Source: Pirellulales bacterium
GTDB lineage: Bacteria > Planctomycetota > Planctomycetia > Pirellulales > JACPPG01
Direction of reading: 5' to 3'
Assembly: GCA_036490175.1 (NCBI GenBank)
Contig: DASXEJ010000142.1
Location: forward strand, 1-64,000
Length of the DNA stretch: 64,000 bases
Below the pieces are notes generated by a model, which did no database searches, had not been told where the DNA came from, and worked only from the letters and a program-made list of their open reading frames with translations. The position numbers and the translations under genes are program-made. Positions within the stretch are counted from its first letter, which is position 1, and each line of letters begins with the position of its first letter. Positions 674-59,812 of this stretch are shown one piece after another.

Positions 674-2776
674 GTGTCATCTGGACCTGGTCCAGGCGCC
701 GGCACCGCCAGTGTGCTGATGCGCCTGTCCTCACTGATTTTGCCGGTTGGGCTCGTGGCGAGCCTGCTGGTCGTCTTGGTGCCAATGCCCCCGGCATTGA
801 TGGACCTGTTGTTGTCGGCCAACATCGCCGTGGCCGTCATCATGCTGCTTACCACGGTCTACGTGCGGACCCCGCTCGAATTCAGCATTTTTCCCTCGTT
901 GCTGCTGGCCACGACTTTGGGCCGGCTGGTGTTGAATATCGCTACGACACGTTTAATTCTTACGCGCGCGGCCACTCATGGTCTGGATGCGGCCGGCGGC
1001 GTCGTCCGCGCCTTCGGAGAGTTCGTCGCCGGAGATCGCGTCGTCGTGGGACTGGTGATCTTCCTGATCATCATCGTGATTCAGTTCGTCGTGATCACCA
1101 AGGGCGCCACCCGTATTAGCGAAGTAGCCGCCCGATTTATCCTCGATGGCATGCCCGGCCGGCAGATGGCCATTGACGCCGATTTATCAGCCGGCGTGAT
1201 CGACGAAAAGCAGGCCCAACGCCGCCGCAGCGACGTCACGCGCCAGGCGGATTTCTTTGGCGCTATGGACGGAGCCAGCAAGTTTGTCCGCGGTGATGCC
1301 ATAGCGGGTATTGTCATCATTCTCATCAATATCGTCGGCGGCTTGTTTATTGGGGTTGTCGAATCAGGCATGAGTGTGAGGACTGCCGCCGAAGTATTCA
1401 GCAAGCTCACGATCGGAGACGGTCTCGTCACCCAGGTGCCAGCATTTCTGATTTCCATTGCCGCGGCACTGCTTGTTACTCGCAGTACCGAAGAGACCGA
1501 TTTACCGGCTCAATTTATTCGCCAGTTGTTCACAGGCCCCGAAGCGCTGATTGTTACGGCCGTCTTTCTGGGATTCCTGACATTTACAAGATTACCGCTG
1601 TTGCCGCTCTTGCTGATTGGTGGCATTTGTGTTGCTGTGGCGGTCTCTTTGCAGCGTGGCCGCCGTCGCGCCCGAGATGTTGCTGCCCAGCAGTCGTCTA
1701 CCGAAACGAAGCAAGTCGAGCAGCGCGTCGAGCAATACCTGGCCATCGATCCCATGGAAATCGAAATCGGCATCGGCCTGATCCGGCTCGCCGATCCGAA
1801 ACGCGGCGGCGATCTGTTGGGTCGCGTGCAGCGCGTGCGCCAGGCGATTGCAGCCGAGATCGGCATCGTGATGCCCAAGGTGCGCATACGAGACAATACC
1901 CGGCTTGACCAGAACCAATATCAGATCAAAGTGGCCGACGTGCCCGTGGCCGATGGGCATATTCGGCCCGGAATGCTGTTAGCGATTCCCACTGCCGACG
2001 TCACGGAGTCAATCGCCGGCGCGGCAACTCACATTACGGCCTTCGAGAAGACAGGAGTTTGGGTCGAACAGGGACAGCGTCGCGATGTCGAGACACAAGG
2101 CTATACCGTGTGGGATCCGGCCACCATTGTTACCCACCATTTGACGGTAGTGGTTCGAAAACACGCGGCAGATTTGCTCACGCGCGATGCCACTCGCCAC
2201 CTAATTGACGAGCTGAAAACCACGGCGCCGGCAGCGGTCGACGAGTTGATTCCCGGTCTCATGAAGCTGGCGGAAGTGCAGCAGGTCTTGCATCTGTTGC
2301 TACGCGAAGGGGTATCGATACGCCACTTAGGGTTGATTCTCGAGACATTAGGCGATTGTGCCCCGCGGACCACGGACTCTCTGGCCCTGGCCGAGCTGGT
2401 CCGCCAGCGGCTGGCACGGAGCATTTGTGCGCGTTATCGAGACGGCGAGCATCGATTGCGCGTTCTGACGCTCGACCCCGAGCTAGAGGATCGGATTCGC
2501 GCCAGCTGTGAACAGACCGATAGCGGAATTACCGTGAGGATGCCGCCGCCGGCACGCGATGCCATTTGTCGGCTCATCCGCGAGGAGGCCGAAAACCTGG
2601 TTCGCGAAGATCATCCGGCGGTGGTCTTGGTGAGCCCGCAAATACGTGTTCCTCTCAAGCAAATTACGGCCGCTGGGTTGCCAAACCTGGTCGTACTGAG
2701 CTACGCCGAGATTACACAAGATACACATGTCGATTGCCTGGCGATGATCACCGACGCAGTCGGCGTGGCTGCCTGA
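674..2776 (+). CDS. flhA: Flagellar biosynthesis protein FlhA
   Basis: FlhA is the large inner-membrane subunit of the flagellar type III export gate; its cytoplasmic domain forms a nonameric ring that docks chaperone-substrate complexes. The 700 residues fit the family. The first ~330 residues are hydrophobic with several membrane helices, interrupted by the FHIPEP family signature (SEVAARFILDGMPGRQMAID, about residues 150-170), followed by a soluble C-terminal domain. The start is a GTG at 674; an in-frame ATG at 719 is an alternative, and neither has a clear ribosome-binding site. flhF follows 67 nt downstream in the same direction, then flhG and the flagellar sigma factor, a classic order. 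Confidence 0.95.
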   Translation: MSSGPGPGAGTASVLMRLSSLILPVGLVASLLVVLVPMPPALMDLLLSANIAVAVIMLLTTVYVRTPLEFSIFPSLLLATTLGRLVLNIATTRLILTRAATHGLDAAGGVVRAFGEFVAGDRVVVGLVIFLIIIVIQFVVITKGATRISEVAARFILDGMPGRQMAIDADLSAGVIDEKQAQRRRSDVTRQADFFGAMDGASKFVRGDAIAGIVIILINIVGGLFIGVVESGMSVRTAAEVFSKLTIGDGLVTQVPAFLISIAAALLVTRSTEETDLPAQFIRQLFTGPEALIVTAVFLGFLTFTRLPLLPLLLIGGICVAVAVSLQRGRRRARDVAAQQSSTETKQVEQRVEQYLAIDPMEIEIGIGLIRLADPKRGGDLLGRVQRVRQAIAAEIGIVMPKVRIRDNTRLDQNQYQIKVADVPVADGHIRPGMLLAIPTADVTESIAGAATHITAFEKTGVWVEQGQRRDVETQGYTVWDPATIVTHHLTVVVRKHAADLLTRDATRHLIDELKTTAPAAVDELIPGLMKLAEVQQVLHLLLREGVSIRHLGLILETLGDCAPRTTDSLALAELVRQRLARSICARYRDGEHRLRVLTLDPELEDRIRASCEQTDSGITVRMPPPARDAICRLIREEAENLVREDHPAVVLVSPQIRVPLKQITAAGLPNLVVLSYAEITQDTHVDCLAMITDAVGVAA

Positions 2777-2843
2777 AAATGTGGTGCCAGCAGACTTCTT
2801 TTTGTTGAATACGGGAGATTTCGTGGAAACCCACGGAGTGAAT

Positions 2844-3989
2844 ATGGAGATCAAAACCTATCGCGCCAGCACGATGCAAGAGGCATTGCGCCTGGTGCGC
2901 GCCGATCTCGGGCCAGGAGCAGCCGTACTCCACACGCGCGAGGCTCCGCTGAGCCGATTCTTGGGATGGGTCCCCGGCATGCGGCGGATCGAGGTGACCG
3001 CATCCAACGACGTCGTCGTGCCGGCTCGCTTTCCGCTGAGTGGTCATTCACGCGCGGCCCGAGGACGGTCGCTCGCCGACGACGAGACGGCGACGGCCTC
3101 CCCGACGGTGGACGTGGCCAGTCAGCTGGCCGAGCTACAGACCATGGTCGAGGATCTTTGTCGGCGCAGTCGCGGTACAAGCCAGCCGGAGCTGCCAGAA
3201 TCGCTTTTCGGCCTATATGCCGAGTTCATCGACGGAGAAATGCCCGAAGATCTGGCCCGCGACCTTGTCGAACGGGTCCGGCTTCAAACACCGCCACACG
3301 AGTTGGACGATGCCGCGGCCTTGCGCTTGCGTGCGGCAAAGATTGTCGAATCAGATATCACGGTAGCCCCGCCGATCAGCGTAACAAATGGACGTTGCCG
3401 CGTCGTGGCTTTAATCGGACCCACCGGTGTCGGCAAGACCACGACGATCGCCAAGTTGGCTGCCAATTTTCGTTTGCGCGACAAATGGAATGTGGGCCTG
3501 ATCACGGTCGACACTTACCGGATCGCGGCCGTCGAACAGTTGCGCACCTACGCCGATATCATCGATTTGCCGATGCAGGTCGTAAACACGCCGCGCGAAA
3601 TGCGCGAAGCGGTCGACCGCTTCGCGCAGATGGATCTAGTTCTGGTTGATACGGCCGGCCGTAGCCCACGCGACGAAATCAAGATTCGCGAACTGCGTGC
3701 GCTGTTATCCGAGGCGCGCGCCGACGAGGTACACCTGGTGTTATCAAGCGCTGCCAGTGCCGCCAGCTCGACGGTCACCGTCGAACGATTCGCCCCGGCC
3801 GGCGCCACGGCACTGATCCTTACCAAATTGGATGAGGCGAGTGGCCTCGGGCACCTGCTGCCGATGGCTCGCAACGCGCGATTGCCGTTAAGTTACCTGA
3901 CTAACGGGCAGAACGTGCCAGACGATATCGAGTCGGTCGACGCGAACCGCTTGGCGCAAACCGTGTTAGGCGGTGCGTTCCAGCATTGA
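2844..3989 (+). CDS. flhF: Flagellar biosynthesis GTPase FlhF
   Basis: FlhF is an SRP-type GTPase that sets the position (often polar) and start of flagellar assembly. The ATG at 2844 is preferred over the upstream in-frame start at 2781 because GGAG at 2834-2837 sits 6 nt before it and MEIKTYRA is the typical FlhF N-terminus. This gives 381 aa: a variable, charged N-terminal region, then the NG domain with GPTGVGKT (residues 192-199), an RIAAVEQL element, DTAGRSPRD and TKLDEA guanine-specificity motifs. It lies between flhA and flhG; FlhG normally stimulates FlhF GTP hydrolysis, so the two are expected to act as a pair. Confidence 0.93.
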   Translation: MEIKTYRASTMQEALRLVRADLGPGAAVLHTREAPLSRFLGWVPGMRRIEVTASNDVVVPARFPLSGHSRAARGRSLADDETATASPTVDVASQLAELQTMVEDLCRRSRGTSQPELPESLFGLYAEFIDGEMPEDLARDLVERVRLQTPPHELDDAAALRLRAAKIVESDITVAPPISVTNGRCRVVALIGPTGVGKTTTIAKLAANFRLRDKWNVGLITVDTYRIAAVEQLRTYADIIDLPMQVVNTPREMREAVDRFAQMDLVLVDTAGRSPRDEIKIRELRALLSEARADEVHLVLSSAASAASSTVTVERFAPAGATALILTKLDEASGLGHLLPMARNARLPLSYLTNGQNVPDDIESVDANRLAQTVLGGAFQH

Positions 3990-4098: not shown

Positions 4099-4154
4099 AC
4101 GCAAACGAGCCCTGGTTTTTTGTAAACACAAGAATTTAAGAGGAATTGTTCGCA

Positions 4155-5018
4155 GTGGTGCCGGATCAGGCTTTTCGCCTTAGAACGCTTATGCACGCAG
4201 GCGGTCGTAGGGTTGATGCTGCGCCTGCTGGTGCGCCGCGGCTAGTGGCCGTTGCCGGTGGGAAGGGCGGAGTCGGTACGACGACGGTTGCCCTGAACCT
4301 GGCCGCCGCCATGGCACGCGACGGACGGCGCACAATGCTGGTCGACGCCGACCCGCAGCGCGCGGATGTCGCCGCGCTCGCCGGTGTGTGCGATGGACAT
4401 TGCCTGGCTGACGTACTCTCTGGCACTCGTTCGTTGCACGAGGCCATGCAGCTCGGCCCGGCCGGAATCCAGATCTTGCTGGGCCGCTGGGGAGCGCATG
4501 CTGCACTGGATTGGTCGGCACACGCCCAGGAACGATTCATTTACGATTTGCGCACCCTGGGCCCGCATGTAGACATGATTCTGCTCGACCTGGGGAGTGT
4601 CGTTGACGCCACGACACGGCACTTCTGGAAGGCCGTCGACGAAGTCGTGCTGGTCACGACGGCTGACAATGTCGCGGTGATGAACTCCTATGCGACAGTA
4701 AAGACGCATGCCGACGCATCCCAGCCGCTGCGCATTGCTTCACTGGTGAATCAGTCCACTGATCTATCGGCCGCCCAGGACGCGCACATGCGATTGCAGC
4801 GTGCCTGTCGGAGGTTCCTCGGTGTCGAGGTGCGCGCGCTCGGCTCGATACCGCAGGACTCTGCCGTGCTGGCGGCTGCTGCCAACGCACGACCATTTGT
4901 CGTCCAGGCCCCCGCCTGCGCCGCGGCGCAAGAGCTGGCGCGGTCGGTCGATAGGCTCGCCGTGGCAAAGACCCACAGACAGGAAAGAAAAGGATTTACT
5001 CAACCGCAACGCGGCTAG
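4155..5018 (+). CDS. flhG: MinD/ParA-family ATPase FlhG (flagellar number regulator)
   Basis: FlhG (also called FleN, YlxH or MinD2) is a membrane-associated ATPase that limits flagellar number and regulates FlhF. The GTG at 4155 is chosen: the AAGAGGA Shine-Dalgarno at 4138-4144 is 10 nt upstream, whereas the TTG at 4146 is too close. This gives 287 aa. DQAFRLRTLM near the N-terminus resembles the FlhF-activating helix of FlhG. The deviant Walker A is GGKGGVGTTT (residues 35-44), with the signature lysine kept but the usual P-loop lysine replaced by threonine. DADPQRADV is the following acidic box, and LLDLGS fits a Walker B-like strand. Position after flhF supports the name; a CpaE-like ATPase is the alternative by motif alone. 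Confidence 0.85.
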   Translation: MVPDQAFRLRTLMHAGGRRVDAAPAGAPRLVAVAGGKGGVGTTTVALNLAAAMARDGRRTMLVDADPQRADVAALAGVCDGHCLADVLSGTRSLHEAMQLGPAGIQILLGRWGAHAALDWSAHAQERFIYDLRTLGPHVDMILLDLGSVVDATTRHFWKAVDEVVLVTTADNVAVMNSYATVKTHADASQPLRIASLVNQSTDLSAAQDAHMRLQRACRRFLGVEVRALGSIPQDSAVLAAAANARPFVVQAPACAAAQELARSVDRLAVAKTHRQERKGFTQPQRG

Positions 5019-5311
5019 TGGCCGATAACTGTATCGCTTTGAGCAACTTTGACAAACTGTAGCGGTCACCTCGGATTTAGGGGCGCGAAGCACCGACCAG
5101 GTGCCAAGCGACCGATGATGAGTGGGCTCCGACCGAGCCTTTTACGACTCGTGCCGGGAACTAGTTCTGCACATCTAAACGGGTCTGCCGCTCAAGCAAA
5201 CGCGCTCCGTAGATAAATCGACCGTGTGAGTTGCCTTCGACCGGCGATGGATTGCCGCTCGTGGCATCACAATTTCCGAATACGTCGCTCGCCTGATTCA
5301 TGGAGGATGGC
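5019..5311. other. Intergenic region flhG-sigma factor
   Basis: Nearly 300 nt with no supported gene. The only signal seen is a weak sigma-54-like box at 5261-5277 close to the sigma-factor start, listed separately. Confidence 0.4.
5261..5277 (+). promoter_or_regulatory. Weak sigma-54-like box upstream of the flagellar sigma gene
   Basis: GTGGCATCACAATTTCC has GG at 5263-5264 and a TC pair at the -12 position with correct spacing; the -12 G is T. Transcription from it would start about 24 nt before the ATG at 5312. On its own this is weak; it is listed because two better matches lie in the same cluster. Confidence 0.25.
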
Positions 5312-6094
5312 ATGGTAACGACAGTGGCTGCTGAAGAAGTCACCCAGATCTGGGAGTCTTTCAAGGCAGACCCCAATAATCAGGACCTACGCAACCGACT
5401 CGTCGAAATGTACTTGCCACTGGTCAAGTACAACGGCGAGCGCATCTGGTCTCGCCTGCCCGAAGGGGTCGAGCTGGATGATTTGGTCTCGGCGGGCGTA
5501 TTTGGCCTGATGGACGCGATCGACGCCTTCGACCTGACGCGTGGCGTGAAATTCGAGACCTATTGCGTGCCGCGCATTCGCGGTGCCATGCTCGACGAGC
5601 TGCGCACGATGGATTGGGTGCCTCGACTGGTGCGCTCCAAGGCCAGCAAGCTGAACGAGGCCATCAAGACGCTCGAAACCAAGATCGGTCGGCAGCCAAC
5701 TGAATTGGAACTTGCGCAGCACATGACCATCAGCGTGGCCGAACTCGAGAAAATGATCCTCGACGCCAACGCTGTGAACCTGATCAGTCTTAACAAGAAG
5801 TGGTACGAGACGGACAGCTACAAGGACGTGCGCGAGATCGACATTCTGGAAGACAAGAAGGGCGAAGACCCGACCCGCCGCATCCAGAAGAACGACTTGA
5901 TGCGGCTCGTGACGAAAGGGCTCAACCGCAACGAGCGGCTCATCATCATCCTCTACTACTACGAGGAGCTGACGATGAAAGAGATCGGCGCCACTCTCGA
6001 TCTTTCCGAGAGCCGCGTGAGCCAGATGCACAGCTCGATCGTGCAAAGGCTGCAGAGCCAGCTGGAACGCCGCCGGCCGGAGTTCAGCACGTAA
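5312..6094 (+). CDS. fliA: RNA polymerase sigma factor, FliA/WhiG family
   Basis: This is a sigma-28-type alternative sigma factor that directs late flagellar genes in most motile bacteria. The ATG at 5312 is chosen because GGAGG at 5302-5306 lies 5 nt upstream; another in-frame ATG at 5300 sits at the edge of that same site. The protein is 260 aa. The region 2 core reads LVKYNGERIWSRLP then DDLVSAGVFGLMDAID, the region 3 helix follows, and the C-terminal region 4 helix-turn-helix is MKEIGATLDLSESRVSQMHS. Length and motif order match the FliA/WhiG family. Its position after flhA-flhF-flhG is the standard flagellar arrangement. No anti-sigma factor FlgM is visible nearby. Confidence 0.92.
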   Translation: MVTTVAAEEVTQIWESFKADPNNQDLRNRLVEMYLPLVKYNGERIWSRLPEGVELDDLVSAGVFGLMDAIDAFDLTRGVKFETYCVPRIRGAMLDELRTMDWVPRLVRSKASKLNEAIKTLETKIGRQPTELELAQHMTISVAELEKMILDANAVNLISLNKKWYETDSYKDVREIDILEDKKGEDPTRRIQKNDLMRLVTKGLNRNERLIIILYYYEELTMKEIGATLDLSESRVSQMHSSIVQRLQSQLERRRPEFST

Positions 6095-48398: not shown

Positions 48399-48802
48399 AT
48401 CCGCTGGCAGCAGACGACGTCAAGATCAGCAGGTTGCTTTTATATCATTGCCGTTAGTTGCGAAGCTCCAGATCGCACGTACTGGCTAATGCTAGCTTGC
48501 TTCATGGCTCAGACGTGGTTTCGCCGTTCGATGATCGCCGTCTTGCACGTTATGCGGGGCAAGCCAATCGTGCGCAAATGTCGCAACGTCCGGAGGGCAC
48601 CGTTCGATAGCAAGCCACATTGACACTGTCGCGCCGTTTCGAGTACAAGCCCTGGACTTTTCACGTCTCGTTTTGCCTGATGCGACGGCGGCAGTCGCTC
48701 ACCTGCGGCGGCGCGCCGCCTTGCTCGAAACTCGCTTCTTTTTTCCTTGCGCGCCTGGCTGCGTCGCGTGTTGGCTTGTTAGGTCCGCCACGAGATCCGA
48801 CT
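48399..48802. other. Intergenic region before the kinase-like gene
   Basis: About 400 nt between divergent genes. No gene or RNA recognised; a promoter for the flagellar cluster would be expected but no confident -24/-12 or -35/-10 match was found. Confidence 0.35.
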
Positions 48803-49666
48803 ATGAACAGCAAATCCCCGAAGTTGCGACTGGCTGATCCGGCGGAAGTAGCAGTCGACTCCGATCTGCAGACCGTACTGAATGCCTGGCACGATGCCAC
48901 GATTCGTTGGGAACAGACGCACGAGACGCTGCAGGCCGAAGTAAGACGGCTCTCGACACAATTGGCGGCCAAGCAACCCATGCTGATCCGCGGCGATGAT
49001 CCGACTCATGCCGGACGAATCGCCGCGCAGCTGGCGATCGGCATCCGTGACAAGTTGGTTCCTGCCAGCTTGCACCTTAACCTGCTGCGCCGACGCGTCC
49101 TGGACGATGCTGTGGCACTGGATCTTTTGCAAAAGGCCGATCAAAGCTTTGTCGATGCCGATAGCCTGGTTGAAAACCTGATGCAATTCGTCGTCGAGCG
49201 TCATCCTCACTTGCAGCCGATTAACTTGCGCGCACTGGTATGCGAAGTCCATGCCGAATTGCTGCCCACGCTCTGTGTTCAAGGCGTGGCGACGACAATT
49301 GACGTGCCCGAGCATGTATCGGTCGAGGCCGATTCCGCCATGCTACGTCGCGCCCTAACGAACCTGACACGCAATGCCCTAGATGCCATGCCTGGCGGTG
49401 GCGAGCTGGTGGTCACGTCGTATGTCGGGCACCATTGCGTCGAGCTAGAGATTGCTGATAGCGGTGTCGGGCTGGCCGACGAAGCGAAGGAACGGGCCTT
49501 TGAGCCCCTGTATACAACCAAAAGTAATCGGGCCGGCCTGGGACTAGCGATCGTGCAGAGTATTGCCGAGGCGCATGGAGGCGATGTCTTCGCCGCCAAC
49601 TGCCCCGACGGCGGCGCCGCATTTACCATCAGGCTGCCGCGTCGAGCGCTGGCCGCCGCCGCATGA
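48803..49666 (+). CDS. Histidine-kinase-like ATPase protein with degenerate H-box
   Basis: The ATG at 48803 is chosen; the frame opens at 48620 with a sequence unlike a coding start. The protein is 287 aa, soluble. An N-terminal coiled region (about 22-60) is followed by a dimerisation-like helix and a good HATPase domain: NLTRNALDAMPGG (N-box), ADSGVGL (G1), AFEPLYTTKS and GLGLAIVQSIAEAHGG (G2). The H-box position reads LAIGIRDKLVPASLHLNLL, with Ile79 where the phosphoacceptor His of NtrB/FlrB-type kinases sits. It is 103 nt upstream of fliF in the same direction, so a flagellar regulatory role (FlrB-like) is inferred. Confidence 0.75.
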   Translation: MNSKSPKLRLADPAEVAVDSDLQTVLNAWHDATIRWEQTHETLQAEVRRLSTQLAAKQPMLIRGDDPTHAGRIAAQLAIGIRDKLVPASLHLNLLRRRVLDDAVALDLLQKADQSFVDADSLVENLMQFVVERHPHLQPINLRALVCEVHAELLPTLCVQGVATTIDVPEHVSVEADSAMLRRALTNLTRNALDAMPGGGELVVTSYVGHHCVELEIADSGVGLADEAKERAFEPLYTTKSNRAGLGLAIVQSIAEAHGGDVFAANCPDGGAAFTIRLPRRALAAAA

Positions 49667-49769
49667 TTCAACGAGAACCGACAGCGGCCTAATCTCCGCG
49701 CCAGAATATCAGAGTCAATTAAGCGCACAACCAGGAAGGTTGTGACAGAGCATTTCAGGAGCGCGCGGG

Positions 49770-51419
49770 ATGGACCTCGTCAATCGCCTGTATAGCCAAC
49801 TGACGGACCTCGTCCGTACGATGACGCCTCGGGCTCGCCTCACGGCGGCCTTGCTGATGGCAGTCGTCTTGGCCAGCCTGGGCTTCCTCGGCAGATATGA
49901 GTTGGCTGGCGAGACAACCTACCTGCTTGGCGGCCAAGTCTTCTCCGGCGACGAAATCACGGCTATGCAGGGAGCGCTCGGCAAAGCGCAACTGAATGAT
50001 TTCACGGTCGAGGGGAATCGTCTCCGCATTCCCCGAGAGAAACAGGCTGTCTATCTCGCAGCGCTCGCCGATGGCAATGCCCTGCCGCAAACCCTCACCA
50101 ACATTTTCTCTGAGGCAACCGACAAGGCGACCTGGTTCGCGTCGCAGAAGCAGTTAGCAGAAAATACGCGGATCGCCAAGAAAAAAGGAGTGGCCCTAAT
50201 TCTGCGTAGCATGAGTGGGGTGGAAAGTGCCGAGGTCGATTTCGACAAAGAAGAGCCGCGAGGACTTCGGCAAGAATGCATCTCGACGGCTCTCGTGGCT
50301 CTCAAGCTACATGCCGGCCAATCGCTCAGCGAAGACCGAGCCGCTTTTTTCCAGCGCACCGTAGCGGCCGCGTTGATGATGTCACCACAAGATGTGACCG
50401 TCGTCGACAAGATCAACCATCTGGTCTATGGCGGCCGCGGGTCAGGTGTTGCCGGCGGGGGTGTCGAAGATTATCGCAGCCTAAAACTCAAGTATCAGGC
50501 AGACTACGAAGAGTCCGTCCATAAGGCGCTGACTTACGTCTCCGGAATCACGGTCAGTGCGCATGTGGAACTAGAGCGAGAACTGCGACACGAGGAAACG
50601 CGCATCGAGTCCGATGCCAATCGCGCCGCCTCGGTCGATCGCTTCGAGCCGCAGCGATCGACCGTCAACGAACCGGGTGGTCTGGCCGGCAGCCCATTGG
50701 TCTCGTCGAAAGAGAGCTCGAACTTGCCGGTACTGATCGATTCCGTCTTGCCCTTGGGGCCAAAAGCCTCTCCGGCGCATGGCGGCCCCGCGAATGATCG
50801 TCCGGCGCAGAATCAAACGACCACCGAGTTGGCCGGTCTGACTCCCAGACGCGTGACGATCTCGGTAGGCGTGCCGACAAGTTATTTTGTTCGTGTCTGG
50901 CGCGAACGACATGCCGCGCAGGCTTACGACGGGCTGACGCCGCCGGTGGCCGAACTCGCGCAGATTCAAACGGAAGAAATTGCCCGCATTCGCGAACACG
51001 TAACACCGCTGTTACCTGGCGCCGGCCTGTCGTCCTCGCTGGGCGATTTCGTTACGGTCACTCCCTTTTCGCACGTGATTGAGCCCGACCAGCCCGAGCC
51101 CTCGTCGAGCACGATTGCGGTCGATTGGGTGCTGAGCAATTGGAGCACCTGGATTGTAATCGCCGCCATGACTATTGGTCTGATGACACTACGATCGACA
51201 TTACGTGCGGCGAGGCGTTCGCCACGAGGTAAAGCCACGGACGTCCCTGCCGATGGGCAACCGCGACGAGGCGTTGTTCCGCCATCAAAGCGCCCTTCCG
51301 AAACCGCCCGGCCAGTTACCGCGGGCAGGTCGCTGCGCGACGAACTCGCTGACGCAGTGCGCAAAGATCCCTCCGCCGCGGCGAATATTCTGCGATCTTG
51401 GATCGGAAACTCGAATTAA
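49770..51419 (+). CDS. fliF: Flagellar MS-ring protein FliF
   Basis: FliF forms the membrane ring that founds the flagellar basal body. The 549-aa protein starts at an ATG with CAGGAG upstream. Membrane helices lie near residues 25-45 (LLMAVVLASLGFLG) and 450-475 (WSTWIVIAAMTIGLMTL), with the periplasmic ring-building domains between. SEATDKATWFASQKQLAENT fits the second ring-building motif. The cytoplasmic C-terminus (ELADAVRKDPSAAANILRSW) is the FliG-binding tail. fliG starts 2 nt after its stop. Confidence 0.93.
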   Translation: MDLVNRLYSQLTDLVRTMTPRARLTAALLMAVVLASLGFLGRYELAGETTYLLGGQVFSGDEITAMQGALGKAQLNDFTVEGNRLRIPREKQAVYLAALADGNALPQTLTNIFSEATDKATWFASQKQLAENTRIAKKKGVALILRSMSGVESAEVDFDKEEPRGLRQECISTALVALKLHAGQSLSEDRAAFFQRTVAAALMMSPQDVTVVDKINHLVYGGRGSGVAGGGVEDYRSLKLKYQADYEESVHKALTYVSGITVSAHVELERELRHEETRIESDANRAASVDRFEPQRSTVNEPGGLAGSPLVSSKESSNLPVLIDSVLPLGPKASPAHGGPANDRPAQNQTTTELAGLTPRRVTISVGVPTSYFVRVWRERHAAQAYDGLTPPVAELAQIQTEEIARIREHVTPLLPGAGLSSSLGDFVTVTPFSHVIEPDQPEPSSSTIAVDWVLSNWSTWIVIAAMTIGLMTLRSTLRAARRSPRGKATDVPADGQPRRGVVPPSKRPSETARPVTAGRSLRDELADAVRKDPSAAANILRSWIGNSN

Positions 51420-51421
51420 CA

Positions 51422-52447
51422 ATGACGCTCGCACACGACTCGCTGCGCCGCGTGGCCATCCTGGTTGCCGCCTTGGACACCCACAGTGCTGACGGCATCC
51501 TCGAGGGACTTTCCGCAGAGCACTCTGCCCAGGTGCGGCAGATGATCATTTCTCTCGGCGACATTGCCGATGTAGACGAGCAGGCGGTCATCGACGATTT
51601 TCTCAGCCGAGGATTCGCAAGCATCGACAGCACGATAGCTCGGCAACCAGAAGACGGAGTCGAGCTCTACATCTCGGCGGAATCCTCGGCCATTGACGCG
51701 AATCTGGTACCGGCGCTTTCAACGGCATTCGAACGACCGCTTGCAAACGCGGCACCAGTCTTTGAATTATTGGAACATGCCGAGCCTGCCGCTCTGGTCA
51801 AAGTGCTCGTGGGAGAGCGCCCTCTAACCATTGCCGTAGTGCTCTCGCGGTTATCGGAATCGCACGCGTCGATCATATTGGGTGAACTTCCCGATTCTCT
51901 GCAGGGTGAGGTACTCCGTTGTTGGATGGCACTAGGCGATGCCGATGCCGCGGTGTTGCATGAAATCGAGCAAGGCCTGCTGACACGGCTCGCGCCGCCG
52001 GCCCGCACGCGCGGACGACATGCCACGGATAGGAACCAGCTGACAAGGGTCGTACAGGCCGCGGCGCCTCGCGTGCAGCAACAGATTCTCGACAGGCTGG
52101 CCCTATACGATGCGTCCTATGATCAAGAGATGGTCACCGCGCCCCGGCTCGCTTTCGACGACTTGGAATACCTCAATGACGCGGGCTTGGCATCCATGCT
52201 GCGCAATGCTGATCCGCAAATGATAGTGCTGGCGTTGGCTGGCGCCGCTGAAAGTTTCGTCGAGCGGGTCGCACGACAACTACCAGGAGAAGAGGCCAAG
52301 CATTTACGTCGCGCGATAGAGTCTCTGGGACCAATACGCTTGGCCGACGTCGAGTCGGCGCAACAAGAGCTGGCCAGGCTGACCGAGACTCTTGTGCATC
52401 AGAGTAGCGTAACACTGGCCTCGTTGCCGCAAAGTGTTGCCGACTAA
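51422..52447 (+). CDS. fliG: Flagellar motor switch protein FliG
   Basis: FliG is the C-ring component that contacts the stator. The ATG at 51422 directly follows the fliF stop; a TTG at 51398 would overlap. The protein is 341 aa, near the family norm. The FliF-binding N-terminal domain starts RRVAILVAALDTHSAD, the middle domain follows, and the C-terminal motor domain is recognisable at FDDLEYLNDAGLASMLRN and AIESLGPIRLADVESAQQE, the latter matching the conserved Gly-Pro-x-Arg-x-x-Asp-Val element. The N-terminal sequence is quite diverged. Confidence 0.9.
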   Translation: MTLAHDSLRRVAILVAALDTHSADGILEGLSAEHSAQVRQMIISLGDIADVDEQAVIDDFLSRGFASIDSTIARQPEDGVELYISAESSAIDANLVPALSTAFERPLANAAPVFELLEHAEPAALVKVLVGERPLTIAVVLSRLSESHASIILGELPDSLQGEVLRCWMALGDADAAVLHEIEQGLLTRLAPPARTRGRHATDRNQLTRVVQAAAPRVQQQILDRLALYDASYDQEMVTAPRLAFDDLEYLNDAGLASMLRNADPQMIVLALAGAAESFVERVARQLPGEEAKHLRRAIESLGPIRLADVESAQQELARLTETLVHQSSVTLASLPQSVAD

Positions 52448-52538: not shown

Positions 52539-53183
52539 ATGCCTAAAGTGATTCGAGCCGATCAGCGTGGCCCGGCAGCGCATTTCAATTTCGACGACAT
52601 AGCGGCGCAGGCTGCAGAGGGGGTAGCCCGTGCGCGACGCGAGGCCGAAGCGATCATCGCCGAGGCCGTGAATGCTGCCACTGCCATTCGCGAGCGGGCA
52701 GAAATCGAGGGCCGCCAGGCGGCCGAAAAAGTCGTCGATCGCGTTCTCGAAGAGAAAGTGGCTGCGCAGTTCGCAACCCTGCGACCCGCACTCGACAAAG
52801 GATGCCGGGAATTCGCGCTTGTCCGGCAGCAGTGGCTGACCGAGTGGGAAGCACGGGTTATCCGCTTGGCGACCTCGATTGCGCGTCGGCTGATACGTCG
52901 CGAACTTGCTGCCGTGCCGGATATCCCCATCGCACTGGTGCGCGAGGCCCTGCAACTGGCCGCGGGCTCGACGCGGTTGCGGCTGCACATGAATCCCAGC
53001 GACCTCGACACGCTGGCACCTCAGGTTCAGCGCCTCTTAGACCAGCATGCCTCGGCGGCGACCATCGAGTTGTTTGTCGACACCTCGATCAGCCCTGGCG
53101 GCTGCCGCGTAGATACGGAACACGGATCGGTAGATCAGCAGTTCGAGTCGCAACTGGCGCGGGTCGCGGAAGAGTTGACCTAA
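52539..53183 (+). CDS. fliH: Flagellar assembly protein FliH
   Basis: FliH anchors and regulates the export ATPase FliI. The 214-aa protein has an Ala/Glu-rich, coiled-coil N-terminal half (QAAEGVARARREAEAIIAEA) and a C-terminal domain with IRLATSIARRLIRREL and VDTSISPGGCRVDTEHG, as in FliH/YscL/V-ATPase E-subunit relatives. It sits directly between fliG and fliI as expected. Confidence 0.9.
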   Translation: MPKVIRADQRGPAAHFNFDDIAAQAAEGVARARREAEAIIAEAVNAATAIRERAEIEGRQAAEKVVDRVLEEKVAAQFATLRPALDKGCREFALVRQQWLTEWEARVIRLATSIARRLIRRELAAVPDIPIALVREALQLAAGSTRLRLHMNPSDLDTLAPQVQRLLDQHASAATIELFVDTSISPGGCRVDTEHGSVDQQFESQLARVAEELT

Positions 53184-53205
53184 TCTTTGACGAGTAGTGG
53201 CGACG

Positions 53206-54546
53206 ATGTTCGACATGATCGATCAACTGGATGGAATCATGCCGTCGGCAATGACGGGCCGTTTGGTGCGCACCGTCGGCACGACGGCCGCGGTGGCTGG
53301 GTTTCGCGCGCCGTTAGGCGCCACTGTAGGAATCGAACGCCAGATCGGTTCGGAAGTGTTGGCGGAGGTGATCGGCTTTCACGACGACCTCACTCTACTA
53401 GCGCCGTGGGGTGATATGCACGGCGTACGTCACGGCAGTCGCGTACGGCTGGTACGAAGCCGAAATTGGTTACGCGTGGGCCAGGGATTACTCGGCCGCG
53501 TCGTCAACGCGCATGGCGCTCCGCTCGACGGTCGTCCCCAGCCCGCGCTATTAGAGCGGGTGCCAATCGACGGTTGTGCCTCGAATCCCGTTTCACGTCC
53601 TCGGATTTCAATCCCGCTATCGACCGGCGTCAGGGCGGTTGATGGCATGCTGACTTGTGGCAAGGGACAACGGATGGGAATCTTCGCCGGCGCCGGGGTC
53701 GGCAAGAGCGTGCTATTGGGCATGATGGCGCGCAACTCGCGCGCAGACGTCAATGTCATAGCGCTAATCGGCGAGCGCGGCCGTGAAGTCAATGAGTTCC
53801 TCGAGCGTGATCTGCAACAATTCGGTCTAGGACGCAGCGTGGTAGTTGTCGCCACCAGTGACGAACCGGCCTTGATGCGCACACGCGCTGCATTAACCGC
53901 CACCGCGATTGCCGAATACTTTCGCGAGCAAGGCCAGGATGTGCTGTTGCTAGTTGACTCGCTGACTCGCTATGCGCTGGCGCAGCGCGAGATCGGCCTG
54001 GCTGCCGGCGAGCCGCCAACGACACGCGGCTATCCGCCGTCGGTCTTTGCCACGTTGCCGAAACTAGTCGAGCGCGCCGGCTTGACTTCGCGCGGCAGCA
54101 TTACGGCGTTTTACTCCGTGCTCGTTGAAGCCGACGATCCTAACGAGCCGATCAGCGACACATTGCGATCGCTATTGGACGGGCACACTTGGCTCTCTCG
54201 AAAACTTGCCAGCCGAGGTCATTTTCCGGCGATAGATGTGCTGGATAGCCTCAGCCGGTTAATGACCGAGGTGACCACGCCCGCACATCGCGAGGCGGCG
54301 ACTCTGGTGCGCGAGTTGCTGGCCGCCTATCGCGATCATGAGGACCTGATCTCGATCGGTGCCTATCGCACCGGCGGCAACCGCATGGTCGACGTGGCCC
54401 TGCAGATGCTGGAACCGATGCAGCATTTTCTTAGGCAGAGCATCGACGAGGCTGTCACTATTGACGAGGCCCGCGAGGCGCTCTTAAATCTTGCGCGCTT
54501 GGCGCAACAGCGAGTGCAATCATCCGCTACCACTGCTGTTAGGTAA
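53206..54546 (+). CDS. fliI: Flagellum-specific ATP synthase FliI
   Basis: FliI is the hexameric ATPase that energises export-substrate loading. The protein is 446 aa from the ATG at 53206 (a GTG at 53197 is possible). The P-loop is GAGVGKS (residues 162-168), the catalytic Glu is in ALIGERGREVNEF, and LLLVDSLTRYALAQREI is Walker B. GEPPTTRGYPPSVFATLPKL is the conserved family stretch, close to F1 ATPase beta. Good length; fliJ follows. Confidence 0.95.
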   Translation: MFDMIDQLDGIMPSAMTGRLVRTVGTTAAVAGFRAPLGATVGIERQIGSEVLAEVIGFHDDLTLLAPWGDMHGVRHGSRVRLVRSRNWLRVGQGLLGRVVNAHGAPLDGRPQPALLERVPIDGCASNPVSRPRISIPLSTGVRAVDGMLTCGKGQRMGIFAGAGVGKSVLLGMMARNSRADVNVIALIGERGREVNEFLERDLQQFGLGRSVVVVATSDEPALMRTRAALTATAIAEYFREQGQDVLLLVDSLTRYALAQREIGLAAGEPPTTRGYPPSVFATLPKLVERAGLTSRGSITAFYSVLVEADDPNEPISDTLRSLLDGHTWLSRKLASRGHFPAIDVLDSLSRLMTEVTTPAHREAATLVRELLAAYRDHEDLISIGAYRTGGNRMVDVALQMLEPMQHFLRQSIDEAVTIDEAREALLNLARLAQQRVQSSATTAVR

Positions 54547-54593
54547 TCCGAGTCTTGTCGTGCAGCGGAACCCATGTACCACGGCGCAGGACG

Positions 54594-55040
54594 ATGGGCA
54601 AATTCAAATTCCGACTCGAGACACTGATCAACCTCCATCAGACAGAGCGGGATCGATTGCGACGGGATCTCGCCGAGGCCTTGAGCCTGTTGGAGAATAC
54701 GCGAGCCCGCCAGAACCGAGTCACCGCCGAGTTGCAGGTGGCAACACGCGCTCACGCAGCGCGAGCGGGTATCGTCGATATCGCCCGGTTGCAAGCAGCG
54801 GGGGTCTACATTGCCGGGTTACGGCAAGACGAGGCACGCTGCACCCAGGAAATGGCCGTGCTAAACGACGAGATTGTGCGGCGGCGCGAGGCGCTGTTGG
54901 CCGGCGATCGCGAAGTGCGCACGCTGGAGAAGCTACGCGAGAACCAACACGTGCGATTCCGTGCCGACCAGCAACGGCGCGATCAACGGCAGTTTGACGA
55001 ACTGGCCAGCCGTGCCAGCGGCCATCAGGCGGACTTCTAA
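54594..55040 (+). CDS. fliJ: Flagellar export protein FliJ
   Basis: FliJ is a small coiled-coil protein that couples FliI to FlhA. The ATG at 54594 (MGKFKFRLETLINL) is the canonical beginning, so the frame's upstream start at 54555 is rejected. The protein is 148 aa, nearly all alpha-helical and charged, a typical length. It follows fliI and precedes fliN. Confidence 0.88.
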   Translation: MGKFKFRLETLINLHQTERDRLRRDLAEALSLLENTRARQNRVTAELQVATRAHAARAGIVDIARLQAAGVYIAGLRQDEARCTQEMAVLNDEIVRRREALLAGDREVRTLEKLRENQHVRFRADQQRRDQRQFDELASRASGHQADF

Positions 55041-55268
55041 TCGCTACGATGCTAGCACGTCGTCCGCGCGTCTCGACAGCTGGAACCCAGCCGCCGGATC
55101 GCCGGCAAGGGCAGGGGGTTGATCTTGATCCGGCATCGAAATTCAGCGACAAATACCGCCCCGAATCGCGCCTTCACGATGCTTGCGGCACCCGACGCGC
55201 CAGTCGTCGTGGGCCACGCAAGAGTTTTTGCAAAACTGCGATGGCAGGCAGCCGGTCAAAAGGCTGCT

Positions 55269-55751
55269 ATGCCTGACCTGAGGATTGGCTCCCACATGGC
55301 AGCGGGCGATCCCAACGCCGACGATCATCCTTCGCACGGGCGCACAGGCGACGCCGCGCGGCTTTCCGAGGGAGTTGAACGGATGTTTGATGCGACCGAG
55401 GCCGCGTTAGCCGCGCTGGCCCCCCCGACGCATGCGGCAACGCCACGCTCATTCGAGTTCCGCGATTTTGTGGGGTCGCTGGCGGGGATGCCCAGCGCGT
55501 TGTCCGTTGACGAGGGTCCTGTAGAGGCCAGTCTGAGGATCGAGATGGGGCGCGCGGAGGTGAGCCGGGACGAAATGCTTGGTTTGCGCTCTGGGGCGGT
55601 CGTTCCGCTCGACAAGCTGGCGAATGATCCTGCGGATGTTTATGTCAACGGTCGATTGGTCGCGCGCGGTAACGTAATGGTGCTCGACGAGAAATTCTGC
55701 ATTCGCATCACCGACCTGGTGGCGACCGCGGCGAACGTGGCGTGCGATTAG
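55269..55751 (+). CDS. fliN: Flagellar motor switch protein FliN
   Basis: FliN is a C-ring subunit. The ATG at 55269 has an AAAAGG box about 7 nt upstream; the open frame extends to a TTG at 55119 (and an ATG at 55179), so the exact N-terminus is uncertain. From 55269 the protein is 160 aa: ~90 residues of poorly conserved lead-in, then a SpoA (surface presentation of antigens) domain: EASLRIEMGRAEVSRDEML, VVPLDKLANDPADVYVNGRL, ARGNVMVLDEKFCIRITDLV. fliM, which normally precedes it, is absent here. Confidence 0.85.
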   Translation: MPDLRIGSHMAAGDPNADDHPSHGRTGDAARLSEGVERMFDATEAALAALAPPTHAATPRSFEFRDFVGSLAGMPSALSVDEGPVEASLRIEMGRAEVSRDEMLGLRSGAVVPLDKLANDPADVYVNGRLVARGNVMVLDEKFCIRITDLVATAANVACD

Positions 55752-55806: not shown

Positions 55807-56604
55807 ATGTTCGATCAGAACAAATCGCAAGCACGCATGATCGATCATCGCCCACATCACCGATCGCTTGTGTACGCCACTGCTTGCGTGGCGGCATTCG
55901 TTGGCCAACAACTCTTGGCGCCGCGGCCATTGCAGGCTGCGCCTCCTACCGACAACGGCATCGCGGCGGGGCGCGCCGCCTCCGGTTCCATTCGCCAAAC
56001 GACTCATACTGCGTCCTCAAATGCGCCGCCGTACATCGACCGCGGAGCGACAGCTTCCCCTCGCAATGGCATGGCGCCGGGCGCGGCGCCGCGCGATGTT
56101 GAGCCCGGCGAAGAGAAAATCCGGCTCGGGGCCGCCGAATCACCAGTAAGTAATCAAAGCACGCCGTCGGCGCGCGGCGCCTCACATGGCCTGAAGGCAC
56201 TGACGAGTCTCGCCGTGGTACTGGGACTGTTTTTGGCCGTCGTCTGGGTTATGCGGCGTAGCACGCCGCAAGCGTCACGACGACTGCCGGCCGAGGTAGT
56301 CGAGGTGCTCGGGCATACCACGCTCGGCCATCGCCAGCAGGCCCAACTCGTGCGCTTGGGCAAAAGCCTGTTGTTGATCGGCGTGTCACCGGCTGGCGCC
56401 GAAACACTGGCCGAGGTGACAGATGTCGCCGAGGCCGACCGCCTGGCCACACTTTGCCGTGGCTCGAATGTCGGCGGTGCGAATCCTTCGTTTCGCGACG
56501 TCCTCCAACATTTCAAAGAGCGATCGTCGACAGCTCGTGCGACGAAGGCTCAGATGGGGCTAGGGCTGCACGCCAGTGTTCGGCCGGAGGAGCACGATGT
56601 CTAG
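55807..56604 (+). CDS. fliO: Flagellar biosynthetic protein FliO
   Basis: FliO is a small helper of export-gate assembly. The 265-aa protein has a signal-like region (SLVYATACVAAFVGQQLL), a ~90-residue low-complexity periplasmic part and a membrane helix (GLKALTSLAVVLGLFLAVVW) near residues 127-146, then a cytoplasmic FliO domain including GHRQQAQLVRLGKSLLLIGV. The long N-terminal extension is unusual, as most FliO proteins are near 100-130 aa. Its last 8 nt overlap the fliP start. Confidence 0.85.
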   Translation: MFDQNKSQARMIDHRPHHRSLVYATACVAAFVGQQLLAPRPLQAAPPTDNGIAAGRAASGSIRQTTHTASSNAPPYIDRGATASPRNGMAPGAAPRDVEPGEEKIRLGAAESPVSNQSTPSARGASHGLKALTSLAVVLGLFLAVVWVMRRSTPQASRRLPAEVVEVLGHTTLGHRQQAQLVRLGKSLLLIGVSPAGAETLAEVTDVAEADRLATLCRGSNVGGANPSFRDVLQHFKERSSTARATKAQMGLGLHASVRPEEHDV

Positions 56605-57421
56605 CCCTCGTTACAGGTGGTGTTTGCCAGTCCTTGTCGTCGGGGTCGCGCTGGTGCTTGCCTGGGGGCAATCGGTCGCCGCCCAGGAGGGGCTCAACGC
56701 GCCCGCAAGTCTCGAATTGCCGGAAGGTCTGCTTGCCGGCCCTGCGGGTTGGACAAGCCCTGAGGGATTAAGCTCGTCGATCCAAGTGATGCTGTTGCTG
56801 GCGGTCATGAGCCTGGCACCCGCCGTGCTTTTGATGACAACCTGCTTCGTGCGAATCGTCGTAGTGCTGAGCTTGTTGCGGCAAGCTATAGGTGCGCAGC
56901 AGTTGCCGCCGAATCAGGTGATGACATCGATCGCGCTGTTCTTGACCCTATTGGTTATGGCGCCGGTTTGGAAAGACGTCTACGACAACGCCGTCGTTCC
57001 CTACAGCAATCGTCAGATCGACTTGGATCAAGCATGGACCGCCGGCTGCAAGCCCGTCAGACGCTTCATGAGTATGCAGATTGAGAAGACGGGGAATAGC
57101 GAGGACGTGCGACTGTTTCTCGATTACTTGCCCAACGCCGCCACACAGGAATATCAATACTACGAGGACGTGCCGCTTGCGGCGTTGATTCCCGCATTCA
57201 TGCTCAGCGAACTTAAGACATCATTTCTCATCGGTTTTCAAATCTATTTGCCGTTTCTGATTCTCGACATGGTGATCGCCAGTGTGCTGGTTTCGATGGG
57301 CATGCTGATGCTTCCCCCGGTGCTGATCTCGTTGCCGTTCAAACTGATGTTATTTGTTTTGGTCGATGGCTGGCATTTGATCGTGGGTATGCTCTTGGCA
57401 AGTTTCCAAGCCTACTCATGA
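56597..57421 (+). CDS. fliP: Flagellar biosynthetic protein FliP
   Basis: FliP forms the core pore of the export gate with FliQ and FliR. The ATG at 56597 has the strong site GGAGGAG (56586-56592) and overlaps the fliO stop (ATGTCTAG). The protein is 274 aa. A signal peptide is followed by hydrophobic helices; TSFLIGFQIYLPFLILDMV and MGMLMLPPVLISLPFKLM are the family signatures (ILDMV-x-A-S-x-L-V). Length and order are normal. Confidence 0.95.
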   Translation: MSSPRYRWCLPVLVVGVALVLAWGQSVAAQEGLNAPASLELPEGLLAGPAGWTSPEGLSSSIQVMLLLAVMSLAPAVLLMTTCFVRIVVVLSLLRQAIGAQQLPPNQVMTSIALFLTLLVMAPVWKDVYDNAVVPYSNRQIDLDQAWTAGCKPVRRFMSMQIEKTGNSEDVRLFLDYLPNAATQEYQYYEDVPLAALIPAFMLSELKTSFLIGFQIYLPFLILDMVIASVLVSMGMLMLPPVLISLPFKLMLFVLVDGWHLIVGMLLASFQAYS

Positions 57422-57495: not shown

Positions 57496-57762
57496 ATGGA
57501 ACCGCACGTCGCAATCGACCTGGCACGCGAGGCCGTGATGACGATGTTGATCGTCAGCGCGCCGGTTCTGATTGTCGGTATGGTTGTGGGCTTGATCGTG
57601 GGTTTGGTCCAGGCCGTGACGCAGATACAGGAACAGACGATCGCCTTCGTTCCCAAGTTGGTTGCCACGTTGATCGTGCTCTCGCTGAGCATGCCATGGT
57701 TGCTCACGCGCATGACGGAATACTTTCGCGATCTGATCGAGAACATTCCGGCGTCACTTTGA
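57496..57762 (+). CDS. fliQ: Flagellar biosynthetic protein FliQ
   Basis: FliQ is a small two-helix gate subunit. The 88-aa protein has helices at about 16-38 and 50-74. GLVQAVTQIQEQTIAFVPKL is the conserved connecting segment. It lies between fliP and fliR as usual, each with a gap of some 75-90 nt. Confidence 0.95.
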   Translation: MEPHVAIDLAREAVMTMLIVSAPVLIVGMVVGLIVGLVQAVTQIQEQTIAFVPKLVATLIVLSLSMPWLLTRMTEYFRDLIENIPASL

Positions 57763-57852: not shown

Positions 57853-58656
57853 ATGCCGTGGATAGTGGAACTGTTACCGACGCACTTGCTGGTCTTTACG
57901 CTCGTGCTGGGGCGCGTGGGGGGAATGGTGTTCGTCGCGCCGCTATTCTCTGCGATGGCCGTGCCGGCCCATATTCGCGCCTTTGTCGCGATCGCTTTGG
58001 CAATTCTGCTTTTACCTGCGCAGGCCACGAGCGACATTGTCGCGCCGGCATCTTTGATCGAGTGGTTACTGACCGTCGGCGTAGAACTGCTCATTGGCTT
58101 GGCCCTCGGTGTCGGAGCGACGATCCTTATTGCCGGCATGCAGCTGGCGGGCCAGTTGATGGCCCAGGCGAGTGGACTTTCGCTTGCCGAGGTTTTCGAT
58201 CCCGGCCTGGACGCGAATGTGCCCGTGGTGTCGCAATTTTTGGGTTCGTTCACATTGGCCGTGTATCTATTGATTGGCGGGCATCGCTGGCTCTTGGCCG
58301 GTTTGATGAATACGTTTTCGACGCTTCCTCTGGGAAGCGGCCGGTTACCGGGGTCGGTGGCCGACGCTCTGGTGGCATTGCTGACCGAAAGCTTTTCGCT
58401 GGGGATCAAAGCAGCGGCGCCACTGGTGATCTCGTTGTTGCTGGCCACACTCGTCCTCGGCTTGATCGGACGAACATTGCCACAGTTGAATATCTTGTCG
58501 GTCGGATTCGGTCCCAATGCGATCATTGCCTTTGGGATGTTGGCGATGCTTCTGGGCACCATCGCCTGGCTATTCGAGGATCGATTGCAGCCGGCGATCG
58601 TGCTCGTTCTAGATGCGCTGGCGTCGACCGGGCCCAACACTCTGGAACTGCGTTAG
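57853..58656 (+). CDS. fliR: Flagellar biosynthetic protein FliR
   Basis: FliR is the single-copy gate subunit. The 267-aa protein is nearly all hydrophobic, with six or so helices. The early LVLGRVGGMVFVAPLFSAM and FVAIALAILLLP, and the middle GLSLAEVFDPGLDANVPVVS, are typical of FliR/SctT. flhB follows 64 nt downstream. Confidence 0.93.
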   Translation: MPWIVELLPTHLLVFTLVLGRVGGMVFVAPLFSAMAVPAHIRAFVAIALAILLLPAQATSDIVAPASLIEWLLTVGVELLIGLALGVGATILIAGMQLAGQLMAQASGLSLAEVFDPGLDANVPVVSQFLGSFTLAVYLLIGGHRWLLAGLMNTFSTLPLGSGRLPGSVADALVALLTESFSLGIKAAAPLVISLLLATLVLGLIGRTLPQLNILSVGFGPNAIIAFGMLAMLLGTIAWLFEDRLQPAIVLVLDALASTGPNTLELR

Positions 58657-58720: not shown

Positions 58721-59812
58721 ATGGCCGAATTGACCGGCGACAAAACACAGGAGCCGACGTCGCATCGTCGCCAGCAGGCGCGTGAGCAGGGCCAGGTTGC
58801 CCGCAGCCGCGATGCATCTTCCGCCCTGTTGCTTTGCGGTGCGGTCATAACGTTGCTGTGGCTGGGGGGGCCGATTGTCGATTTCCTAGGCAATCTCACG
58901 ATTCGTCAACTCGGGGGCGATCCGTGGCTGTCGGCAGATATCTCGTTTGTGACAAGCGAGTGGAGCGGTCTGTTGACATCGCTGGCCGTCGTGTTGTTGC
59001 CCATCCTCGGGCTGATGATGCTATTGGCGATTTCCGGCAATGTTCTGCAGGTCGGATTGATTTTCCTACCCGGTAAGATATTGCCGGACTTCTCGCGCAT
59101 CGATCCCCTGGAGGGATTCAGTCGCCTGGTTTCGTTGGCAAACTTTGGACGATTGGCTTTTGGCTTTATCAAACTCGTCGTCGTAACCAGCGTAGCGTGG
59201 TATTGCCTGGACTCAGAACTCGAACGTGTTCTCAATAGCGGTCATTTACCTGTGGCCGAGTTGGCGGCCTTTATGGCACAAATAATCGTCTGGACAACTC
59301 TCAAGATCGGCGTGGCACTGCTGACGATAGCCGGCATGGACTATGCCTACGAGCGTTGGCGTCACGAGCGCGATTTGCGGATGACCTCGCAAGAGATCCG
59401 CGAGGAGTTGCGCAGTATGCACGGCGACCCGCAGGTTATGTCACGGCGTCGCGCGTGGCATCGCCAGTCACGGGCGGCGGCGCAAGTGGCGAGCACGTTG
59501 AAGGCCGATTTACTGATCGTTGACGGGAAAGGACTGGCTGTTGCCGTGCGCTACGATGCGTCGTCGATGTCCTCTCCCTTGGTGGTTGCGAAAGGAGCCG
59601 GCCCGGCCGCCTCGAAAATGCGCGAGTCGGCGGAGGCTCAGCGCGTGCCCTGCGCCACAGAGGCGGCACTCACCCGGTCGTTGTATGAGGGCGTGTCGCT
59701 AAATCGGCCTGTGCCCCAAGAGTTTTATGGTGGCGTGGCCGAGCTTTTGGGGAAAAAATGTTCGGTCGCCATGGTCGAGGGTAGTCGACCCGCTCCGGCA
59801 GGCGCGACGTAG
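58721..59812 (+). CDS. flhB: Flagellar biosynthetic protein FlhB (without the NPTH autocleavage motif)
   Basis: FlhB is the gate subunit that switches export from rod/hook to filament substrates. The 363-aa protein has a charged start (HRRQQAREQGQVARS), four membrane helices to about residue 210, then the linker DYAYERWRHERDLRMTSQEI and the cytoplasmic domain. Where Salmonella FlhB has the self-cleaving Asn-Pro-Thr-His at 269-272, this protein reads IVDGKGLAVAVRYD (DGKG, residues 268-271) in an otherwise well aligned domain (VVAKGAG, VPQEFYGGVAELL). Autocleavage by the known asparagine chemistry is therefore not expected. Confidence 0.92.
   Translation: MAELTGDKTQEPTSHRRQQAREQGQVARSRDASSALLLCGAVITLLWLGGPIVDFLGNLTIRQLGGDPWLSADISFVTSEWSGLLTSLAVVLLPILGLMMLLAISGNVLQVGLIFLPGKILPDFSRIDPLEGFSRLVSLANFGRLAFGFIKLVVVTSVAWYCLDSELERVLNSGHLPVAELAAFMAQIIVWTTLKIGVALLTIAGMDYAYERWRHERDLRMTSQEIREELRSMHGDPQVMSRRRAWHRQSRAAAQVASTLKADLLIVDGKGLAVAVRYDASSMSSPLVVAKGAGPAASKMRESAEAQRVPCATEAALTRSLYEGVSLNRPVPQEFYGGVAELLGKKCSVAMVEGSRPAPAGAT

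Follow-up and report, generated by a model that had tools for sequence, protein, structure and literature searches.

Loss of the FlhB autocleavage motif in a flagellar-type export apparatus lacking detectable rod, hook and filament genes in Pirellulales

The autocleavage of FlhB switches export by the flagellar apparatus from rod and hook substrates to filament substrates. In Salmonella, the FlhB mutant N269A is locked in the rod/hook mode (PMC3708937), removal of the FlhB C-domain blocks early export, and the same removal combined with the loss of the inhibitor Fluke makes late secretion constitutive even though hook and FliK are absent (PMC13344023). Early substrates dock in a pocket of Salmonella FlhB made of A286, P287, A341 and L344 (PMC9307174, PMC13344023). 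The FlhA residues D456, F459 and T490 form the late-chaperone site, and the substitutions D456V, F459A and T490M raise hook-type secretion, an effect measured in a sensitised strain devoid of FliH and FliI (PMC8166844). Type III secretion system (T3SS) cores without axial parts are already known from the Myxococcales, in which the so-called Myxo non-flagellar T3SS (NF-T3SS), formerly called a relic, is conserved over long times (PMC3459982). For Planctomycetota, the openly licensed literature searched describes neither a repeated hookless state nor FlhBs that have naturally lost their cleavage motif or domain.

The window analysed here, i.e., the whole stretch of 64,000 nucleotides taken from a Pirellulales bacterium (assembly GCA_036490175.1, contig DASXEJ010000142.1), encodes an FlhB from which the autocleavage motif Asn-Pro-x-His/Glu is missing. 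The codons GAC GGG AAA GGA specify D268-G269-K270-G271 in its place, and a phmmer alignment with the solved full-length flagellar FlhB 36hu, which is of the NPTH type, pairs KADLLIVDGKGLAVAVRYDA of the window protein with KADVIVTNPTHYSVALQYDE at the cleavage site without any gap, so that D268 stands at the position of Salmonella Asn269. The profile PF01312 covers the whole length of the protein (301 bits, positions 2-332 of 335) without frameshift. The original prediction, which placed DGKG at residues 268-271 and regarded it as a replacement of all four residues rather than a gap or frameshift, agrees with these data; it named the right site, but the NPTH it took as reference is the minority form among relatives of the order. 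The turn that harbours DGKG is modelled by AlphaFold with a pLDDT of about 84-87 nearby, and Foldseek matches the predicted C-domain to those of FlhB, EscU and YscU, e.g., with an rmsd of 1.3 Å over about 91 columns and a TM-score of 0.90 by target for EscU N262D (PDB code 3bzs). According to its full-length profile match and its C-domain fold, the protein is a member of the FlhB/SctU family by descent; since the motif is missing, it is considered an FlhB homologue, yet not classed as an autocleaving switch protein. It should remain uncleaved, as do the engineered Asn-to-Asp and Asn-to-Ala mutants.

A second FlhB, which had been proposed as a possible main gate subunit with an intact motif, was sought in the window's own genome (95.8% complete) and none was found; the four congeners also possess one FlhB each. 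These five genomes read DGKG, NSSG, SPAG, DAEG and GPSG, the motif being lost differently in each, whereas about 30 other relatives in the order read NPTE and one reads NPTH. Among 56 hook-bearing genomes with a full-length FlhB, the motif is NPTE in 40, NPTH in 14, NPTQ in one and NSTH in one, i.e., the Asn residue is always kept. That DGKG could be an error, with the genes missing from the cluster lying on unassembled contigs, is hardly credible: although the genome is in 393 contigs, the five congeneric genomes concur, the motif differs by multiple codons per species, and the gaps in the cluster lie inside an unbroken contig. The idea that close relatives would keep NPTH, which would have pointed to a sequencing error, fails for the same reason, since all four congeners lack the motif and hook-bearing relatives carry NPTE or NPTH.

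The organization of the genes surrounding flhB (Table 1) can be compared with that of the flagellated relative G021, in which a histidine kinase (HK), a response regulator (RR), FlgB, FlgC, FliE, FliF, FliG, FliH, FliI, FliJ and a MotE-like protein (our own label for a gene without Pfam match) are followed by FliK, FlgD, FlgE, MotA, MotB, FliL, FliN, FliO and on to FlhB. In the window and in congeners G001 and G003, the order is HK, FliF, FliG, FliH, FliI, FliJ, FliN, FliO, FliP, FliQ, FliR and FlhB, and traces of the two missing blocks, sought by HMM in the window, were not found. In congener G004, FlhB is located apart from the remaining cluster.

Table 1. Features of the export gene clusters in the window (positions in the window; HMM, hidden Markov model)
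Feature	Position	Strand	Description	Evidence
flhA	674-2776	+	late-chaperone dimple residues eroded	PF00771, 794 bits
flhF-like SRP-type GTPase	2781-3989	+	congener orthologues 74-76% identical	PF00448
flhG/MinD-like ATPase	4146-5018	+		
fliA-like sigma factor	5300-6094	+	92-96% identical in congeners	
histidine kinase heading fli cluster	48620-49666	+	same position in flagellated relatives (L083)	PF02518
junction	49667-49769		without the response regulator, flgB, flgC and fliE carried here by flagellated relatives	comparison with G021 map; no HMM matches
fliF (MS ring)	49770-51419	+		PF01514
fliG	51398-52447	+		PF14842, PF14841, PF01706
fliH	52539-53183	+		PF02108
fliI ATPase	53197-54546	+	P-loop AGAGVGKS and LLLVDSLTR present	PF00006, PF18269
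fliJ	54555-55040	+		PF02050
junction	55041-55118		without the motE-like gene, fliK, flgD, flgE, motA, motB and fliL of flagellated relatives	
fliN	55119-55751	+		PF01052
fliO	55807-56604	+		PF04347
fliP	56576-57421	+		PF00813
fliQ	57496-57762	+		PF01313
fliR	57853-58656	+		PF01311
flhB, 363 aa	58721-59812	+	cleavage motif lost from an otherwise intact protein (transmembrane part, linker, C-domain)	PF01312, AlphaFold C-domain fold
autocleavage site, DGKG instead of NPT(H/E)	59522-59533	+	beta-turn between strands 264-267 and 272-277	

Some neighbouring genes deserve mention in their own right. FliE is kept in the hookless genomes G004 (L296) and G033 (L297), yet was not found in the window's own genome; it is the one rod-hook gene retained in the Salmonella selection strain (PMC13344023). 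The fliA-like sigma factor is far more conserved among the congeners than the export genes, despite the absence of a flagellin gene. A neighbouring sulfotransferase-family gene (3-320, minus strand; 25 related loci) was rejected as a partner of the system, because flagellated G021 has one too and its presence is thus unspecific; such a gene adjoins flhA or flhB in many Pirellulales, with or without a flagellum. A novel substrate gene common to the hookless clusters was sought and none was found.

Profile searches of the window's own genome and its four congeners (G000-G004) for rod/hook proteins (PF06429), flagellin/FlgL (PF00669) and FliK (PF02120) returned no match, and the predicted absence of a fliK gene next to flhB accordingly holds genome-wide at the profile level. 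A concatenated FlgB/FlgC/FliE/FlgD/MotA/MotB/FlgI/FlgH query, which matched throughout three flagellated controls, retrieved from the own genome only a generic OmpA-type domain (E 2e-4). Rod/hook proteins, flagellin/FlgL, the stator MotA/MotB and the P/L ring, which characterize a bacterial flagellum, are thus undetected in this genome, while the MS ring, C-ring, gate and ATPase parts are present (FliF, FliG, FliN, FliH, FliI, FliJ, FliOPQR, FlhA and FlhB). With neither rod/hook, flagellin, FliK nor stators detectable, no transition from hook to filament is left to be controlled, and the working flagellum in need of a switch, which the original prediction had presumed, finds no place. Of the three ways out it had offered, namely switching without cleavage, a second FlhB, or no such control of hook length, the last comes nearest, as the hook itself is absent; the substitution and the single FlhB stand, the functioning flagellum does not. 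In the panel of relatives, genomes that lost the FlhB motif or C-domain match none of the PF06429, flagellin and FliK profiles, those bearing NPT match all three with few gaps, and FlhA is retained nearly everywhere. The retained C-ring genes fliG and fliN, together with flhF, flhG and the fliA-like sigma factor, would suit a functioning flagellum that switches without FlhB cleavage and whose axial parts are too divergent to be detected. Such a flagellum is nevertheless very improbable, considering that almost every relative of the order bearing NPT yields axial parts with the same profiles, that stators and P/L ring are also missing, that the usual cluster positions are empty, and that the chaperone-docking residues of FlhA are eroded.

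It is instead likely that the FlhB of the window serves as gate subunit in an export apparatus derived from a flagellum but devoid of axial parts, in which the cleavage switch has become obsolete. This apparatus would have lost the rod, P/L rings, hook, filament, FliK and stators, and kept the MS ring, FliG/FliN, the ATPase complex, FliOPQR, FlhA and FlhB. Without hook and filament, FlhB autocleavage would have no task left and the Asn-Pro-Thr-His/Glu motif would decay; in many relatives the whole C-domain is deleted. The retained gate would export in a single mode, of the early type.

The distribution of FlhB was surveyed in 397 Pirellulales genomes of at least 85% completeness, of which 383 possess FlhB and 240 possess rod/hook proteins, FlhB occurring without rod/hook in about 148. 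When FlhBs are assigned by hand to two score classes, with a cut near 1e-90, genomes with rod/hook display 231 full-score and four low-score FlhBs, and those without display 18 and 130, respectively (Fisher p 4e-76, a value that ignores the kinship of genomes and hence overstates their independence). The low-score FlhBs mostly comprise about 244-292 amino acids and end after the linker, which means that the cleavage domain is gone, others being full-length but eroded. The four exceptions with hook genes and a low-score FlhB are fragmented MAGs of 660-1060 contigs: G064 and G350 give partial matches, G350 and one G377 copy reach the contig end, and a second system accounts for the short FlhBs of G376 and of the other G377 copy. 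In four genomes of family f8 (G028, G121, G140, G164), the short FlhB lies within open frames of 438-828 amino acids, which may represent fusions or just frames left open by a high GC content.

Among full-length FlhBs, the motif is intact in 55 of the 56 hooked genomes and in 4 of the 32 hookless ones, where DPTE, NLTE, NPSE, SPTE, STIE, GRSG and SSVG are found among others. The four hookless genomes retaining NPTE are G163, G379, G330 and G364; remnants of flagellar genes persist in G163 and G379, whose hookless state therefore looks recent. Parsimony places 12 changes on the FlhB tree, where hookless genomes are scattered, and well-supported branches force at least 8, both counts being those of a quick tree; on it hookless G022 (NQAE) stands beside hooked G038 (NPTE), and G271/G287 beside hooked G388. 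The loss of the hook has thus been repeated many times in Pirellulales.

Depending on the genome, the retained gene set differs considerably. G163 (L287, G163:C7) keeps NPTE, an intact FliE and scraps of FlgC and FliL, its rod/hook, FliK and stator genes being gone, and appears to be an early stage, a snapshot of recent flagellum loss. The genus of the window has the full inner machine with the motif lost, G237 and G217 are devoid of FliHIJ, and G062, G251 and G265 are reduced to HK-FliF-FliO-FliP-FliQ-FliR-short FlhB, a series that may reflect the order of events. The complete single-contig genomes G114, G255, G329 and G338 (L179-L182; also L183-L185) combine rod/hook genes and an NPTH FlhB of full length with a second, short FlhB of about 250 amino acids, accompanied by FliPQR in those inspected. 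In the quick tree, hookless relatives are the neighbours of these second copies, and a distinct group of NPTH type is made up of the flagellar ones; this placement suggests that the flagellum was lost and then re-acquired, the small gate being retained meanwhile.

The same series could be read as that of a dying relic without present function, in which the rest of the apparatus drifts away after the loss of the hook genes, the FlhB cleavage domain among the first. The gradation from the scraps of G163 and the full set of the window genus to the lack of FliHIJ in G237, then to FliF-FliOPQR-short FlhB only in G062 and G251, and to FliPQR with short FlhB near the match in G114 and G329, speaks for it, and the additional loss of FliG, FliHIJ or more in some hookless genomes fits slow decay as well as the preferred reading. 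However, the export proteins of the congeners, mostly 45-77% identical, are encoded by intact ORFs in a conserved gene order. The dN/dS ratio of the FlhB transmembrane part, to be read with caution since genus-level synonymous sites are near saturation, amounts to about 0.08-0.24 for hookless and 0.04-0.26 for hooked pairs, and to 0.08-0.22 for the short FlhBs, well below 1 throughout. The FlhB C-domain diverges more rapidly than the N-part where the hook is missing and more slowly where it is present, the median C/N divergence ratio being 1.12 vs 0.69 (p 1e-9, kinship ignored). In hookless genomes the C-domain is thus relaxed and the gate is still under purifying selection. The intact ORFs, the low dN/dS and the conserved P-loop of FliI make a pure relic less likely; the retention of FlhB by so many genomes without rod/hook, and of a second, short-FlhB module by complete rod/hook-bearing ones, weighs in the same direction, and the relic is considered unlikely.

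As to the mode of export of a flagellum-derived gate without axial parts, the residues corresponding to A286, P287, A341 and L344 are S, P, A and L in the window FlhB, and P287, A341 and L344 are kept in 32, 27 and 28, respectively, of the 32 hookless full-length FlhBs. In the window FlhA, D456 and T490 of Salmonella are replaced by I454 and H488, with F459 kept; in congener G001, the residue at D456 is V. Hooked relatives exhibit D/E, F/Y and T at the three positions, T490 being found in 28 of 28. With most of the early pocket kept, the late-chaperone site of FlhA eroded and Asn269 gone, the window system seems fixed in one mode of the early type, its gate probably being a single-mode exporter. 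Relatives with a short FlhB should resemble the Salmonella C-domain deletion instead.

It is an evenly balanced proposition that these genomes hold a widespread class of filament-less secretion devices, made repeatedly in Pirellulales from the flagellar export apparatus, ending in a minimal FliPQR plus FlhB without C-domain (with or without FliF/FlhA), and kept for a function of its own even beside a complete, possibly later acquired flagellum. In this respect, two classic Salmonella mutants, the uncleavable FlhB and the FlhB without C-domain, have many natural equivalents in the order, and these are tied to the loss of hook and filament, as expected from the switch model. A flagellar export gate persists under selection without a known axial substrate in more than one third of the sampled species, which makes accessible to experiment the least export gate, its cargo, and the way non-flagellar secretion systems start from flagella.

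With respect to known systems, the window FlhB resembles the flagellar FlhBs (PF01312) of Pirellulales and Salmonella by its full-length homology, linker, C-domain fold, synteny after fliPQR and residues P287/A341/L344, but has DGKG for NPTE/NPTH and no rod, hook or filament genes to serve. It shares an Asp at the catalytic Asn with the engineered uncleavable mutants (FlhB N269A, EscU N262D/A, YscU N263D/A), yet is natural, has Pro, Thr and His/Glu replaced too, and belongs to a hookless system. The Salmonella FlhB with a stop at codon 258 (PMC13344023) resembles the short forms of hookless relatives ending after the linker; the latter are natural, however, some without FliHIJ and FliG near the cluster, and the window FlhB is full-length. 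Injectisomes (non-flagellar T3SS) are characterized by a secretin, the needle protein SctF and SctD/SctJ rings; the ring gene of the window is FliF-like (PF01514). Like the Myxo NF-T3SS (PMC3459982), it comprises a T3SS core from which rod, hook and stator genes, and any known needle, are missing. The Myxo type lacks FlgBCDEK, FliE, FliG, FlgH and MotAB, and the window departs from it by the presence of FliG, the other absences being in agreement. In contrast to the Myxo type, the window FlhB groups with Pirellulales flagellar FlhB, and FliF, FliG, FliN, FlhF, FlhG and the FliA-like sigma factor are kept; the Pirellulales system would represent an independent and repeated origin relative to the Myxo NF-T3SS.
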